From: Tyzzerella sp.
GTDB lineage: Bacteria > Bacillota > Clostridia > Lachnospirales > Lachnospiraceae
Direction of reading: 5' to 3'
DNA length: 64,000 bases
Assembly: GCA_017465565.1 (NCBI GenBank)
Contig: JAFTWA010000058.1
Span: 1 to 64,000 of the forward strand
Positions within the stretch are counted from its first letter, which is position 1, and the number at the start of each line of letters is the position of its first letter. A program made the translations under genes and the position numbers. Positions 6,288-43,992 of the stretch are shown here, in pieces. The notes below the pieces were generated by a model. It ran no database searches. It was not told the origin of the DNA and saw only the letters and a list, made by a program, of their open reading frames with translations.

Positions 6288-7640
6288 TTATTCTACAATC
6301 AATCCTTCTGCACGAATCACATCGATTACTCCATCAACATACTTCGCACAAAGTTCATCTGTTGCAGCCTCAACCATAACACGAATCACAGGCTCTGTAC
6401 CGCTTTCACGTACTAAGATACGTCCGTCTTCGCCAAGTTCTTCTGTTACTTTTGCGATAGCAGCTACAACTGCTGGATTTTCTCTTGCTGTTTTCTTGTC
6501 AGCTACTCTTACGTTCTTTAAGAGTTGTGGGAAGATTTTTACTTCTTCTGCCAATGTACCAAGTAACTGTTTCTTTTCTAACATAACTTCCATAAGTAAT
6601 AATGAAGTCAGGATACCGTCACCTGTTGTTGCATATTTGCTGAAAATGATGTGTCCAGATTGTTCTCCACCGAGTGAGTAGTTGTTCTGTAACATATTTT
6701 CGTAAACATATTTGTCGCCTACAGCTGTCTTCTCATATTTCAAGCCAACTTTATCACAAGCTTTGTAAAGTCCAAGGTTTGACATGATGGTTGTAACGAT
6801 TGTGTCGCCATTTAATCTGCCTTGTTCTTTTAAGTATTTACCGCAGATGTAGAGAATTAGGTCGCCGTCTACTACATTACCATTTTCATCTACTGCAAGA
6901 CATCTGTCTGCATCACCATCGTATGCGAAACCAACGTCCAAATTATTATCTTTTACATATGCCTGTAAAACTTCAATATGTGTTGAACCACAGTTTGTGT
7001 TGATGTTTGTTCCATCTGGTTCGCTGTTGATTACATATGTCTTTGCGCCAAGTGCATCAAATACATTCTTCGCAATGGAAGAGGCACTTCCATTTGAACA
7101 ATCAAGCCCGACTCTTTTGCCTTTGAATGAACGAGTTGCCAATGAAATCAGACGACCGATGTAACGGTTTCTTCCTGCTGAATAGTCTACTGTACGACCG
7201 ATGTTTTCTTTTGTAGCGTATGGAATTTCGCCAACTTCGCCATCAATATAAGCTTCAATCTTTGCTTCTACATCAGCCTCCATCTTATGACCTTGTGCAT
7301 TGATTAATTTAATACCATTATCGTAAAATGGATTGTGGCTTGCTGAAATCATAATACCACAGTCAAAATCCTCAGTTCTTGTAATGTAAGAAACGCTTGG
7401 AGTTGTTGTTACATGCAGTAAATATACGTCAGCACCTGACGCGGTGAGACCTGCTGATAACGCGTCCTCAAACATATAACTGCTTCTTCTTGTATCCTTA
7501 CCGATTACGACTCTAACCTTATGGTCTGCATTTTGACCATAGTACCAGCCGATAAAACGTCCTACTTTAAATGCATGTTCTACTGTTAAATTCACATTAG
7601 CTTCCCCACGGAAACCGTCTGTTCCAAAATATTTTCCCAT
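6288..7640 (-). CDS. glmM: phosphoglucosamine mutase GlmM
   Basis: Interconverts glucosamine-6-P and glucosamine-1-P for UDP-GlcNAc and peptidoglycan synthesis. Length (450 residues) and motifs match: FGTDGFRG at the N-terminus, the phosphoserine loop ISASHNP with the active Ser at residue 101, the Mg2+ loop DGDADR (about residue 242), the sugar-binding GGEQSGH (about residue 327) and the phosphate-binding RESGTEPVIRVM near the C-terminus. Single gene with its own promoter and terminator. GAGGAAAT ribosome site precedes the ATG. Confidence 0.95.
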   Translation of the reverse strand: MGKYFGTDGFRGEANVNLTVEHAFKVGRFIGWYYGQNADHKVRVVIGKDTRRSSYMFEDALSAGLTASGADVYLLHVTTTPSVSYITRTEDFDCGIMISASHNPFYDNGIKLINAQGHKMEADVEAKIEAYIDGEVGEIPYATKENIGRTVDYSAGRNRYIGRLISLATRSFKGKRVGLDCSNGSASSIAKNVFDALGAKTYVINSEPDGTNINTNCGSTHIEVLQAYVKDNNLDVGFAYDGDADRCLAVDENGNVVDGDLILYICGKYLKEQGRLNGDTIVTTIMSNLGLYKACDKVGLKYEKTAVGDKYVYENMLQNNYSLGGEQSGHIIFSKYATTGDGILTSLLLMEVMLEKKQLLGTLAEEVKIFPQLLKNVRVADKKTARENPAVVAAIAKVTEELGEDGRILVRESGTEPVIRVMVEAATDELCAKYVDGVIDVIRAEGLIVE

Positions 7641-29016: not shown

Positions 29017-29892
29017 ATGAAAAAATTAGTAAGCTTATTATTAGCTGCTGTACTTGCATTATCAATGGTAGCATGTGGTAACACAGATACAGACGAAAAA
29101 GACGGGGCTGAAAATAAGGGACCTGTTACAGCTGAGGTTGTTGAATACGATCTTACAGAAGAACTTTATGCATTTGGTGTTGATAAGACACAACCAGAAC
29201 TTTTAGATAAGGTAAATGCATTTGTTAAGAAAATTAAAGAAGATGGTACATTAGAAGCTATCTGTGAAAAATATTTCGAAGGTGGCGAACCAACTCCAGT
29301 AACTTCTGCTAAATTAGACGAAACAAAAGATCAACTCGTTGTTGCTACAAACGCAGCATTCGAACCATTCGAATACATGGAAGGTGACAAGTACTTAGGT
29401 ATTGATATGGAAATCGCAGCTTTACTTGCGCAGGAGCTTGGTCAAGAACTCGTAATCCAAAACATGGATTTCGATGCTGTATGTCTTACAGTAGGTCAAC
29501 AAAAATGTGATATCGCAATGGCTGGTCTCACAGTTAGTGAAGACAGAGAAGAATACGTAACATTCTCAGAATCATACTATGAAGCTTCACAAAAATTAAT
29601 CGTAAGAAGCGATGATGACACATTTGCTGAATGTGAAAGCGCTGATGATGTTATCGCTCTTTTAAATGAAATGACAGAGGAAGTTTCTATCGGTGTTCAG
29701 GCTGGTACAACAGGACAGCTTTTTGTTGAAGGTGACGAAGACTGGGGCTTTGAAAAGCTTCCTGTAAAATGTGTTGCATATAAGAATGGTTCACTTGCAG
29801 TACAAGATATGTTAAATGGAAACATTGATTATGTAATTATCGATGCAGCACCAGCAGCTTCTATCACAGAAGCAATGAATGAAATGCAATAA
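29017..29892 (+). CDS. amino-acid ABC transporter binding lipoprotein, circularly permuted
   Basis: A 291-residue SBP_bac_3-type (polar amino acid) binding protein. Lipobox SMVAC, lipidated Cys20. The order of the fold is unusual: residues 43-88 (YDLTEELYAFGVDKTQPELL, then DKVNAFVKKIKEDGTLEAI and CEKYF) match the segment that normally closes the protein, whereas the normal first strand (QLVVATNAAFEPFEYMEGDK) begins only at residue 106 and the protein stops after DYVIIDAAPAAS, just before where the tail should follow. A linker of about 17 residues joins the two. Ligand-site features are otherwise intact (GTT in AGTTGQ, D-V-I-I-D). The ATG at 29017 is 8 nt after GGAGG. First gene of a complete importer operon. 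Confidence 0.9.
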   Translation: MKKLVSLLLAAVLALSMVACGNTDTDEKDGAENKGPVTAEVVEYDLTEELYAFGVDKTQPELLDKVNAFVKKIKEDGTLEAICEKYFEGGEPTPVTSAKLDETKDQLVVATNAAFEPFEYMEGDKYLGIDMEIAALLAQELGQELVIQNMDFDAVCLTVGQQKCDIAMAGLTVSEDREEYVTFSESYYEASQKLIVRSDDDTFAECESADDVIALLNEMTEEVSIGVQAGTTGQLFVEGDEDWGFEKLPVKCVAYKNGSLAVQDMLNGNIDYVIIDAAPAASITEAMNEMQ

Positions 29893-29915: not shown

Positions 29916-30626
29916 ATGGGTAATTTTGAGAAAAAAATAGAAACGTTTATAACGATATTCTTTGAACAGGGCGGTTCCGCAAAGGTTCTGGAAGGTTTGG
30001 AAAATACGCTTACAATTGCTATAACGGGTCTGATTATCGGTATTTTAATCGGAACGGTGATTGCCACGATAAGAGTGCTTCCAAAATACAAGCTTTTACC
30101 GAGAATTCTGAATGCAATTTGTAGTTTTTATGTTGCAATGTTCAGAGGGACGCCAATGGTTGTTCAATTGCTGGTGTTCTATTATGTACTATTTCCAATT
30201 ATAGGACTTAAGATGACCAGTGTACAGGTTGCCATTATGGTGTTCGGATTAAATAGTGGAGCATATATTTCTGAAATTATGCGAGGCGGTATTCAATCTG
30301 TTGACCCAGGACAAATGGAAGCAGGCCGTGCAGTGGGACTAAGCTTTGGAACGACTATGATGAAAATCGTGATTCCACAGGCAGTTAAGAATATTCTTCC
30401 AACCATGGGAAATGAATTTATTGCGCTCATCAAAGAAACATCAGTAGTAAGTTTCGTCGGAGTAACAGACCTTTATTTCGCATTCAACTCAATTGGAAGT
30501 AATAGTTACGAGTTCATGGTTCCATATCTCGTAATGGCAGCAATTTATATTGTACTCGTACTTATTATCTCGCTGTTAATTAAATTGATGGAAAGGAGCT
30601 TACAGAAGAGTGATAGACGTAGTTAA
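29916..30626 (+). CDS. amino-acid ABC transporter permease (HisM/GlnP type)
   Basis: A 236-residue permease with about five membrane helices. [15 protein letters not shown] starts the transporter core; [18 protein letters not shown] and the EAA coupling loop [22 protein letters not shown] are the signature of the polar-amino-acid family. N-terminal about 25 residues are cytosolic. Its end overlaps the ATPase gene by 17 bases. Confidence 0.94.
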
Positions 30627-31440
30627 TCTTAGAAAAAGCTTTAATAAAGTAGATGTTCTGAATGGCATCAATGTGACCATCAATAAGGGAGATATTGTAG
30701 CAGTTATTGGACCTTCAGGTTCTGGAAAGAGTACATTTTTAAGATGTCTGAACTGCATGGAAGACCCTACAGGTGGAAGTATTATCTTCAAGGGTGTTGA
30801 TATTGCAGATATGAAAGTAGATATCAATGAGCACCGCCGCCATATGGGAATGGTATTCCAGCATTTTAACCTGTTTAATAACAAGACTGTATTGCAGAAT
30901 ATCATGCTGGCACCAGTACATTTGCAATGCAAGGATTTAAAGAAGCAGATGAGACAGAATCTCATCAACAGCATATTGAATATGTTCCGTGGAGAAAAGA
31001 ATAAAAAGGAAATCGTTCAGATTACAAAAAATAAGGAGCAGATTAAGCGCGAAGCGAAGGAACAGGCAATGACTCTGCTTAAGAGAATTGGCCTGGAGGA
31101 AAAAGCAAATGCTTATCCATCTACCTTATCGGGTGGGCAAAAGCAGCGTATCGCGATTATCCGTTCCCTTGCGATGAATCCGGATGTGATTTTATTCGAC
31201 GAACCAACTTCTGCATTAGACCCAGAAATGGTAGGAGAAGTATTGGAACTAATGAGGGAGCTGGCAGCGGAAGGCATGACCATGGTAGTGGTAACTCATG
31301 AAATGGGATTTGCAAAAGAGGTTGCAAACCGTGTAATCTTTATAGACGAAGGAGTTATCAAAGAAAGTAATTCTCCAAAAGAATTTTTCGAAAACCCACA
31401 AGACCCAAGACTCAAGGATTTTCTTGCAAAAGTTTTGTAA
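30610..31440 (+). CDS. amino-acid ABC transporter ATP-binding protein with an insertion
   Basis: A 276-residue GlnQ-type ATPase using a GTG start: Walker [10 protein letters not shown] (34-42), Q-loop VFQHFNLF, signature LSGGQKQR, Walker [15 protein letters not shown]-loop VVTHEMGFA. Typical members are about 240 residues. The extra length is a basic, helical insert of roughly 30-35 residues (about 108-145, around [20 protein letters not shown]) between the helical subdomain start and [12 protein letters not shown]. It faces where regulators bind in other importers, but its role is unknown. Alternative starts lack a better ribosome site. Confidence 0.93.
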
Positions 31441-31454
31441 TATATTGGATAGTG

Positions 31455-31487
31455 AGCGCAGACCAAAAAGGTTTGCGCTTTCTTTGT
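31455..31487 (+). terminator. terminator of the amino-acid ABC operon
   Basis: Stem AGCGCAGACC / GGTTTGCGCT (10 bp, one G-T pair), A5 loop, then TTCTTTG. Confidence 0.85.
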
Positions 31488-31514
31488 ATCTCAGATATAA
31501 TGGGAGTAGAAAAA

Positions 31515-31597
31515 GGGACACCCCTAAATTCAATTTGGGGACACCACAAAACGCAATTGGGGACGTAGTAAAATTTAATTTTACTACGTCCCCAATT
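31515..31597. repeat. REP-like palindrome cluster upstream of sfsA-mutY
   Basis: Contains GGGACACCCC and GGGGACACC units around AAATT-C-AATTT (31515-31546), then a perfect 21-bp inverted repeat with a one-base centre (31555-31575 / 31577-31597) built on GGGGACGTAGTAAAATT. The same two unit types occur at 24820-24875. The cluster ends 19 bases before the next start codon. Confidence 0.75.
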
Positions 31598-31615
31598 AAG
31601 AGAGGAGGGCGAACC

Positions 31616-33376
31616 ATGAAATATGAAAGAATGTATGAAGGCGCATTCATAGAGCGCCCGAATCGGTTTATCGCATATGTTGAGATTGCAGGACAGAAAG
31701 AAACTGTGCACGTGAAGAACACGGGACGATGTAAGGAACTTCTGCAGCCGGGCGCAACGGTTTTTGTGCAGAAAACGGCAAATCCTGAGCGGAAGACCCA
31801 GTGGGATTTGATTGGTGTGAAGAAGGGGGAACGTATGGTGAATATGGATTCCCAGATTCCAAATAAGGTAGTGGAGGAATGGATTCGAGAGGGAAATCTG
31901 TTTTCAAACGTATCTCTGGTAAGGCCGGAGACTACATATGGAAAGTCGAGGTTTGATTTATATATTGAGGCAGGCGGCCGCAAGATTTTTATGGAAATTA
32001 AGGGTGTAACCTTGGAAGAGGATGGTGTAGTGCGATTTCCAGATGCACCGACAGAGCGCGGCGTAAAGCACGTGAAAGAACTTATGGAAGCGGTAAAAGA
32101 AGGATATGAAGCTTATGTATTCTTCGTGATTCAGATGAAAGGTGTGAAATATTTTACTCCAAATGTGAAGACACATCCGGAATTTGCAGAAGCACTTCGG
32201 GAGGCAAGTGAGAGAGGCGTTAAGATACTTGCCTATGACTGTGAAATCTCAGAGGACAGCATTGAGATTCGTGAGGAAGTGCCAGTTTTTCTAGGCGAAG
32301 AACGCTTGATGAAGATAGTGGAGCCATTGGTGAATTGGTATCGTGAAAATAAGCGTGACCTCCCATGGAGACAGAATCCAAGTCCATACCATGTGTGGGT
32401 CTCGGAAATCATGCTGCAGCAGACAAGAGTGGAAGCAGTTAAGCCTTATTATGAAAGATTTTTAAAGGAACTTCCTGCAATTCAAGATTTGGCAGAAGCG
32501 GAGGAAGATAAGCTTCTGAAATTGTGGGAAGGACTTGGTTATTATAATCGTGTCCGCAATATGCAGAAGGCTGCAGTACAAGTTGTGGAAGAGTATGACG
32601 GCGCTTTTCCGCAGGATTATGAGCTTATTAGAAAATTAAAAGGAATTGGAAATTATACAGCTGGAGCAATCAGTTCTTTTGCCTTTGGAATTCCAAAGCC
32701 TGCGGTGGATGGGAACGTACTCCGAGTGATTTCCAGAATCACGGAAAGCTATGAAGATATTATGAAAGCAAGTGTCAGAACGAGGATGGAAGAGGAATTG
32801 GAAAAGGTCATTCCGGCTGACGCGGCCAGTGATTTTAACCAGGGACTGATTGAACTTGGAGCAATTGTCTGTGTGCCAAACGGTGCACCAAAGTGCGATG
32901 CATGTCCAGTCGCACAGTTTTGCAAGGCTTACCAGAATGAAACGCAGGCTGAACTTCCAGTGAAGAGTAAGGCAAAGGCGAGAAAAATAGAAGAGAAGAC
33001 GGTATTTATTTTTAAAGATGGAGAGAATGTTGCTATTCGGAAACGTCCAGCAAAGGGGCTCTTGGCGGGTCTTTACGAGCTGCCGAACATAGAAGGGCAT
33101 TTGACACAGGAAGGGGCGATTGCTTATAGTCAGAAGATTGGACTTGCACCCCTTCATATCAAACCGCTTGAAGAGGCGAAACATATTTTTAGTCATGTGG
33201 AGTGGCAGATGATTGGATATGCCATCCGGGTGGATGAGCTTGAAAAATCTTGTACGGAAAAAATGCTTTTTGTACATCCTGAGGAAGTAGAAAATGAATA
33301 TCCTATACCGGCAGCCTTTGAAAAATATGCAAAATGTGTTAATGTAAAGTTAGGACAAGAAAAGTACGAAGAATAA
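31616..33376 (+). CDS. SfsA-MutY fusion: DNA/RNA nuclease domain joined to adenine DNA glycosylase
   Basis: 586 residues. Residues 1-226 are a complete SfsA: GRCKELLQPG, SRFDLYIE (Asp114), FMEIKGVTL (Glu127, Lys129; PD-(D/E)XK-like centre) and FPDAPTERGVKH. Residues about 232-586 are MutY, which removes adenine opposite 8-oxoguanine: WVSEIMLQQTRVE (Glu264), helix-hairpin-helix LKGIGNYTAGAI (341-352), catalytic Asp365 in VDGNVLR, iron-sulfur cysteines 419, 427, 430, 436, and a C-terminal Nudix-like 8-oxoG recognition domain. The first cysteine gap is seven residues, one more than the usual C-x6-C-x2-C-x5-C. The ATG at 31616 follows GAGGAGGG; upstream in-frame sequence reads through the REP cluster and is not protein-like. 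Confidence 0.93.
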   Translation: MKYERMYEGAFIERPNRFIAYVEIAGQKETVHVKNTGRCKELLQPGATVFVQKTANPERKTQWDLIGVKKGERMVNMDSQIPNKVVEEWIREGNLFSNVSLVRPETTYGKSRFDLYIEAGGRKIFMEIKGVTLEEDGVVRFPDAPTERGVKHVKELMEAVKEGYEAYVFFVIQMKGVKYFTPNVKTHPEFAEALREASERGVKILAYDCEISEDSIEIREEVPVFLGEERLMKIVEPLVNWYRENKRDLPWRQNPSPYHVWVSEIMLQQTRVEAVKPYYERFLKELPAIQDLAEAEEDKLLKLWEGLGYYNRVRNMQKAAVQVVEEYDGAFPQDYELIRKLKGIGNYTAGAISSFAFGIPKPAVDGNVLRVISRITESYEDIMKASVRTRMEEELEKVIPADAASDFNQGLIELGAIVCVPNGAPKCDACPVAQFCKAYQNETQAELPVKSKAKARKIEEKTVFIFKDGENVAIRKRPAKGLLAGLYELPNIEGHLTQEGAIAYSQKIGLAPLHIKPLEEAKHIFSHVEWQMIGYAIRVDELEKSCTEKMLFVHPEEVENEYPIPAAFEKYAKCVNVKLGQEKYEE

Positions 33377-43242: not shown

Positions 43243-43645
43243 AAAAGGGGCTATTGCAAAAGTAGTATAGCCGAGTCGGAAAAATATCCGTGATTTAAGA
43301 CACAAGTTCATTGTTTGGATGGATTTGTGTCTTTTATTATGCATAAAACTGAATATTGCAAAAAAAGTTCCATATAGAGAAAAATTGATTCTTCAGGCCC
43401 CGAAATCATAGTAAAATCCAGAAAAATTCCTTGTTTTTTCCCTATGGCAGAAAATAATTTCGTGCAGCCCTGGGTTTTGCTCAAAAGCGGGGCTTGGCAA
43501 CAGAATTTTTCTCTATATGGAATTTTTTGCAATATTCAGTTTTATGCATAATAAAAGACACAAATCCATCCAAACAATGAACTTGTGTCTTAAATCACGG
43601 ATATTTTTCCGATTCGGCTATACTACTTTTGCAATAGCCCCTTTT
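43243..43645. repeat. 400-bp fold-back inverted repeat between galM and ssrA
   Basis: Arms of 144 bp (43243-43386) and 142 bp (43504-43645) are inverted copies differing at about three positions; loop 117 bp. Each arm starts AAAAGGGGCTATTGCAAAAG and contains smaller hairpins: GGCTAT / ATAGCC, CGGAAAAATATCCG, and AAGACACAA / TTGTGTCTT followed by TTATTAT, which could end transcription entering from either side (galM from the left, ssrA from the right). The inner arm ends and loop hold sequence related to the repeats at 6019-6110 and 8346-8434 (TTCCATATAGAGAAAAATT, AGGCCCC, TTGTTTTTT, TATGGCA). No reading frame worth calling. Looks like a non-autonomous fold-back element; no target duplication could be seen. 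Confidence 0.85.
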
Positions 43646-43647
43646 AG

Positions 43648-43992
43648 TGGACCTGAGGGGAATCGAACCCCTGTCCGAAAGCCCATCCATCAAGGCATCT
43701 CCCATCACAGTCATTATTTTGACATTCCCTCCATCAGACGCCTAATGACAGGCTTCTGACTTTAGTAGCTTCATAAGTTCTTCCATCCCCTCAAAGCTTT
43801 GGGAACGAAGTGCCTCACCTCGTTGAAGCCGGACGCTTAGGCAGTGAGCGACCTAAGGCCGACTGCTGCCACTAGGCAGCGTACGCTAAATTATCGTTTG
43901 CGTTTAATTTTAAAGTACGGATTGTTACGCGGTCCCGCCCCGCGGATGGCTTCCTCAACTTCAAAACCCCCGTCGAAACCAGTACAAGCCCT
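43648..43992 (-). ncRNA. ssrA: transfer-messenger RNA
   Basis: tmRNA rescues stalled ribosomes. On the minus strand the 5' part reads GGGCTTGTACTGGTTTCGACGGGGGT, the tag frame is at 43901-43872, and the 3' part ends with a T-arm (GGGGTTCGATTCCCC) and AGGTCCA. GGGCTT pairs with AGGTCC, with two G-U pairs, to form the acceptor stem. Discriminator A is at 43648; the next genomic bases are CTA, so CCA is not encoded. The length, about 345 nt, fits one-piece tmRNA with pseudoknots (a run GCGGGGCGGGACCGC is part of one). SmpB is encoded at 13392. The 5' leader of about 28 nt would be removed by RNase P. Confidence 0.95.
43872..43901 (-). other. tmRNA tag-peptide frame
   Basis: GCA AAC GAT AAT TTA GCG TAC GCT GCC TAG gives ANDNLAYAA. 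The AA ending and length match clostridial degradation tags recognised by ClpXP. Confidence 0.9.

Follow-up and report, generated by a model that had tools for sequence, protein, structure and literature searches.

The gene P0001 (29017..29892, forward strand) lies within a 64,000-nucleotide stretch of Tyzzerella sp. DNA (the window) and encodes a lipoprotein of 291 residues, which the ORF list, Pfam, phmmer and segment profiles identify as a circularly permuted member of the SBP_bac_3 family. The ORF is preceded by a GGAGG stretch. The signal peptide (29017..29076) ends at the lipobox cysteine Cys20, present in 59 of 59 aligned relatives. It is followed by the moved C-terminal segment, denoted CS (residues 38-90, 29128..29286), which phmmer, profiles and AlphaFold2 delimit as a strand, a return strand and two helices. 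A new linker (residues 91-105, 29287..29331), located by the spacing of the CS and N1 profiles and by pLDDT, connects the former C- and N-termini. Next come N1, the canonical N-terminal segment (VVATNAAFEPFEY ... KLIV; 29332..29616), and C2, the second-lobe segment (IGVQAGTT ... IIDAAPA ... EMQ; 29668..29889), with which the protein now ends. All of these features are on the forward strand. The segment order is CS - linker - N1 - C2, as against N1-C2-CS in unpermuted SBP_bac_3 proteins. We refer to the arrangement group of P0001 (CS-N1-C2) as A1; the lipobox pattern is found in 97 of 102 A1 ORFs, and in these 102 (some genes counted twice) the spacing of the CS and N1 profiles is 18-19 residues.

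P0001 is followed on the same strand by an amino-acid ABC permease [BPD_transp_1, 29916..30626, E = 2e-23; HEQRo_perm_3TM 76.8 bits, cut-off 42.2] and an amino-acid ABC ATPase (30610..31440, E = 2.6e-35) with a GTG start in the ORF list and an insertion at about 30922-31029, so that both partners of an amino-acid importer are present. Nine ligand-site positions (G170, T172, R177, G230, T231, T232, D276, P279 and A280), which we take to be ligand contacts, are invariant across 59 sequences. The operon, the family and these motifs together speak for a predicted amino-acid importer, and P0001 probably has the same function as its relatives: it would bind an amino acid between its two lobes and hand it over to the permease. 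Cys156 (29482-29484) is invariant (59/59) and Cys206 (29632-29634) at least 90% conserved in the type A alignment, making a disulphide between them possible in the permuted protein. No RNA family was found near the operon at Rfam gathering thresholds, the only match elsewhere in the window being a tmRNA gene at 43645-43991 (reverse strand). By eye, the ORF at 31424-33376 seems to consist of an SfsA-like N-terminal part and a MutY-like adenine glycosylase part.

P0001 matches PF00497 (SBP_bac_3) with 111.6 bits (cut-off 26.4), the match being split over two stretches. Against PDB chains, phmmer aligns residues 106-282 with residues 11-173 of AncQR (4zv1) and residues 41-87 with its residues 185-231, of 233 (i-Evalue 0.0077). 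In AncCDT-1 (5t0w), residues 98-281 of P0001 correspond to 14-186 and residues 37-88 to 195-246 (i-Evalue 0.00013); in both chains the two matching stretches come in swapped order. Segment profiles built from eight unpermuted relatives only find every SBP_bac_3 segment once and in rotated order, with 46.1 bits for CS (41-87), 115.8 bits for N1 (106-196) and 47.6 bits for C2 (222-285); 2000 shuffles of P0001 give no more than 8.1, 8.3 and 9.1 respectively. Circular permutation is the reading that these results support best. The original prediction, which described a circularly permuted amino-acid-binding protein with the moved part first, then a linker, then the normal N-terminal strand, and which proposed separate profile searches of the segments, is borne out. 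It had placed the moved part at residues 43-88; a C-terminal segment does stand in front, but it starts earlier (about 38-88) and has an extra strand. In unpermuted relatives the helix that follows the IDxxPA motif precedes this opening strand, and the C-terminus of A1 proteins lies directly after the IDxxPA helix, which agrees with the claim that the chain stops where the moved part should begin. The stop codon of P0001 is 23 bases ahead of the permease ORF, leaving no space for a lost C-terminus. A type A cut within the hinge strand was considered and dropped, since the moved part retains its first strand, which now lies at the new N-terminus.

The AlphaFold2 model of P0001, made with 59 aligned type A proteins as input, has a mean pLDDT of 90.9 and a pTM of 0.77. 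In the model, residues 39-87 form two strands and two helices, with block means of 90-98 across residues 41-90, and the linker region (residues 91-110) has pLDDT block means of 97 and 97. CS would presumably pack as in the canonical fold. Over 49 positions, CS of 102 A1 proteins and the C-terminus of 83 unpermuted proteins correlate in site entropy (rho = 0.76) and hydropathy (rho = 0.87), with 0.38 and 0.26 as the best of 48 circular shifts. The sequences show CS in A1 to be constrained like a canonical C-terminus, a result that speaks to constraint and not to place in the fold. The original ends would be joined by the linker of about 18 residues, and the new ends opened in lobe 2, between the helix behind IDxxPA and the last strand before the return to lobe 1. 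From the alignment and the topology of glutamine-binding protein, the new N-terminus would lie on lobe 2, and the lipid anchor would hang on lobe 2, not lobe 1.

The A1 arrangement is a conserved one. A search of 61 genomes (that of the window and relatives) gives nine full-length permuted proteins including P0001, all CS-N1-C2, with a drop from E = 2.4e-94 for the last of them to 8.7e-36 for the following match. In named bacterial genomes the order is CS-N1-C2 in 80 of 80 loci examined, out of 543 query-related candidates, and permease and ATPase follow the gene at 78 of them, the sequence ending just behind the gene at the other two (L050 and L101). Hosts include Blautia, Dorea, Faecalicatena contorta, Mediterraneibacter massiliensis, Cuneatibacter caecimuris and two Acetivibrio species. 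Relatives of P0001 at E <= 1e-60 occur in at least 32 of 299 Lachnospiraceae genomes and at least two of 299 genomes sampled across the phylum; both figures include the genome of the window and are lower bounds (at most eight candidates were scored per genome); the weakest of the 32 is 43% identical across residues 18-281. The original prediction pointed to similar sequences in other Lachnospiraceae and took the permutation to be probably a lineage trait, which fits these counts; the two Acetivibrio records extend A1 beyond the Lachnospiraceae. A1 forms a single clade (100/100) in a tree of 81 hand-chosen rows. No close unpermuted sister of this clade was found, and its branch in that tree measures 0.98 changes per column.

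A second permuted arrangement (type B, order C2-CS-N1, as distinct from type A, CS-N1-C2) was recognized in some relatives from the order of their segment matches. The arrangements were then sorted by searching with an unpermuted relative written twice, the matched coordinates giving the rotation. Sorted by coordinates in this way, the 150 matches listed, out of a larger total, for 200 Lachnospiraceae genomes comprise 91 unpermuted rows (two of them from one tandem ORF), 44 of type B (one partial) and 15 of type A. The matches listed for 299 genomes across the phylum include one single-domain, B-like row from outside the class (G812) and a long ORF of 779 residues with a shifted matched range (G866). 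Segment profiles assign the ORFs of 279 loci, where some genes occur under two locus names, to CS-N1-C2 (110), N1-C2-CS (93), C2-CS-N1 (67) and other orders (15); because all three forms went into the retraining of these profiles, their E-values do not count as independent evidence. Pfam gives an ordinary SBP_bac_3 match for A- and B-type proteins alike, and annotation thus hides the permutation. No B-type relatives were found in viral contigs. Behind one type A operon (L040) there is a second, different SBP_bac_3 protein (6515-7354 of that locus) in which, as in type B, CS precedes N1; its C2 is recognizable only by eye and is undetected by the profile.

Fusion of the binding domain to a permease occurs in 20 ORFs, 19 of type B and one of type A (L088); all 20 match the window permease with E = 2e-36 or better, and one (L271) also includes the ATPase. 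Several ORFs carry tandem B-register domains together with the permease: three units in L265 and L266, two in L267 and L270 (the latter with the ATPase also fused) and two in L268, where C2 of the second unit is undetected. In the unpermuted register, an ORF of 973 residues (genome G227, recorded as both L113 and L264) has three near-identical domains and a permease, and gives the impression of having been amplified in tandem recently. Residues 26-247 of a B-type protein align with residues 100-322 of PDB entry 6h30, a range that runs from the last part of one domain into the first part of the following one. Among the best 60 PDB matches of this protein, only the tandem 6h30 covers the B order as a single run in its best stretch. 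The GlnPQ-type tandem 6h30 is itself unpermuted, whereas the B protein has only one domain, in a register that occurs within such a tandem.

The insertion in the ATPase is a separate matter. The matches of the window ATPase to GlnQ and TcyN are each split in two, and the insertion lies between Walker A and LSGGQ, which are 139 residues apart. Of 79 ATPases at A1 loci, 78 have a spacing of 112-139 and one (L091) of 103, against 102 or 103 in 94 other ATPases (a few genes counted twice). As these 94 include six operons of A2, a further type A group, and seven type B operons, the idea that permutation brings the insertion with it is not supported, and the insertion is a trait of the A1 transporter clade.

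The third type A group, A3, offers a recent case, seen in a pair of genomes of one genus: L199 is of type A, L196 is unpermuted, and their flanks are colinear (67% identity upstream, 81% downstream). A CS block of 149 nt lies just behind the signal peptide in L199 and at the 3' end in L196, with 81% identity between them; N1-C2 of the two are 83% identical. The moved block and the remainder are thus similarly near the same unpermuted gene, which argues against a paralogue as the source there. A match is found in 56 of 59 genomes from this genus, with the A range in 16 and the unpermuted range in 40 (four weak extra rows left out), and of 30 loci read, 12 are type A and 18 unpermuted. The flanks were compared using L297 (same gene as L199) as the reference for the 29 other loci. 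The downstream flank matches in all 29 (781-1148 of 1506 nt), and the upstream flank over more than 1200 nt in 17 (nine permuted, eight unpermuted) and over 0-398 nt in the remaining 12, among them the permuted L290 and L301. Both flanks are therefore common to ten permuted (L297 included) and eight unpermuted loci of the 30. A quick tree of the genus places the 12 permuted genes on one side of a branch with a support of only 72; with midpoint rooting only, the deeper rows are unpermuted. The permuted L297 ends in GGCTGATAA, the same as the unpermuted L283, and the permuted L291 ends differently; that L297 ends as if CS had been lost and the stop kept is only a hint. The same kind of rearrangement appears, on these alignments, to have occurred within a single genus, beside an unpermuted counterpart at the same locus.

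We lean towards a route in which a gene or domain would have been duplicated in tandem and fused in frame, with the outer parts then lost. Two observations favour it over a move in one step: tandem arrays are found in either register, and the B protein crosses the domain boundary of 6h30 in one run. The alternative, that type A forms arose by a single move of the CS block of about 150 bp to just behind the signal peptide, has in its favour that the flanks and signal peptide of the A3 pair are colinear and that the sequences looked at show no trace of a second copy. We nevertheless consider it rather unlikely: type B is less simply made in this manner, as its whole N1 segment would have to be relocated, there are tandem arrays in both registers, and the end of the A3 linker has a stretch that resembles an unpermuted mature N-terminus. 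Duplication, fusion and loss thus remains our preferred route.

The number of origins was addressed with trees for which the segments of all arrangements were put in one order. Permuted and unpermuted rows are intermixed in these trees, and 11 changes of arrangement are needed in a FastTree tree of 175 of 270 rows (near-copies removed, 15 other-order ORFs left out) and nine in the 81-row tree. Approximately unbiased (AU) tests reject a single clade for all type A rows (p = 0.0003), for A2 and A3 together (p = 0.0001) and for all B rows (p = 0.012). Type B without L016, L243 and L244 is not rejected as one clade (p = 0.30), nor is it when L018 and L021 are also removed (p = 0.24). A2 is also rejected as one clade (p = 0.0105) despite its common linker KYISGxxHDLxFQ, a conflict that may point to transfer, recombination or reversal. 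As group names were given only after the first tree, all of these p-values are optimistic. We take these comparisons to mean that type A had at least two origins and probably three, and type B at least one and probably two. A single ancient permutation followed by reversals could appeal to the reduced set of B rows that holds together and to the fact that change counts cannot separate gain from loss. We judge it very unlikely given the three rejected clades, the linkers of A1, A2 and A3, which by eye are unlike one another, and the unpermuted deeper rows of the midpoint-rooted A3 genus.

Most improbable of all is that P0001 is an SBP_bac_3 protein cut short at its C-terminal end and extended at the N-terminus by a non-packing domain, whose likeness to the lost part would be due to chance or to fusion with a paralogue's tail, for, while CS of A1 does differ in detail from other C-termini (YAFGVDK.QPELL), its score with unpermuted-only profiles far exceeds that of any shuffle, core positions are invariant in the type A alignment, its constraint profile is that of the canonical C-terminus, its AlphaFold2 model is confident, and in L199 CS is about as close as the other segments to one and the same unpermuted gene.

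Taken as a whole, P0001 is in our view very probably the binding lipoprotein of a polar-amino-acid ABC importer with a permuted SBP_bac_3 fold, for which tandem duplication, in-frame fusion and loss is the likely origin. A wider proposal, which we put forward as evenly balanced between true and false, is that SBP_bac_3 of Clostridia is a recurrent natural circular permutant in which two cut sites at the edges of C2 were used repeatedly. The rotation would come about by register sliding in tandem arrays, and selection may favour the moved lipid anchor (or, in the 19 B ORFs, the fused permease).

The SBP_bac_3 (PF00497) proteins GlnH, AncQR and ArtJ share with P0001 the three segments, lipoprotein export, the set of binding protein, permease and ATPase, and the motifs; they differ in that the order of P0001 is rotated and its mature ends lie at the cut beside C2. 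The closest published parallel is TpMglB-2 (Tp0684) of Treponema pallidum, described as a naturally permuted, tethered, glucose-binding ABC ligand-binding lipoprotein of 'Type Ic / Cluster Bc' (PMC4990184). Its authors report that treponemes and Gram-positive bacteria contain relatives of it and raise the idea of a connection with membrane tethering (PMC4990184). Both are natural permutations in an ABC ligand-binding lipoprotein, the tethering of P0001 being predicted from its lipobox. TpMglB-2 belongs to one subclass of the Type I (Cluster B) sugar family, whereas the permuted forms here belong to the amino-acid family SBP_bac_3, use two cut sites and arose more than once; a Pfam scan of P0001 with E up to 1 returned only SBP_bac_3 and Lig_chan-Glu_bd and no Type I sugar-binding family. 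Circularly permuted constructs of ribose-binding protein (PMC10601554) are likewise permuted periplasmic binding proteins, but they are laboratory-made and of another fold type. In the literature searched, where subscription journals were thinly covered, no natural permutation in SBP_bac_3 or amino-acid-binding proteins was found. Natural permutation of an ABC ligand-binding protein has thus already been published for TpMglB-2, and what is new here is the case in an amino-acid family and its unusual recurrence. The possible effect of relocating the anchor is an idea like the one advanced for TpMglB-2 (PMC4990184).

At one locus in one genus, permuted and unpermuted versions are both found, which allows near neighbours to be compared for the steps of permutation and for its effects on binding, transport and anchoring. 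Most of the natural circular permutations known are old events, long since completed, and the Clostridia SBP_bac_3 proteins would offer a natural case for studying how a protein is rewired.
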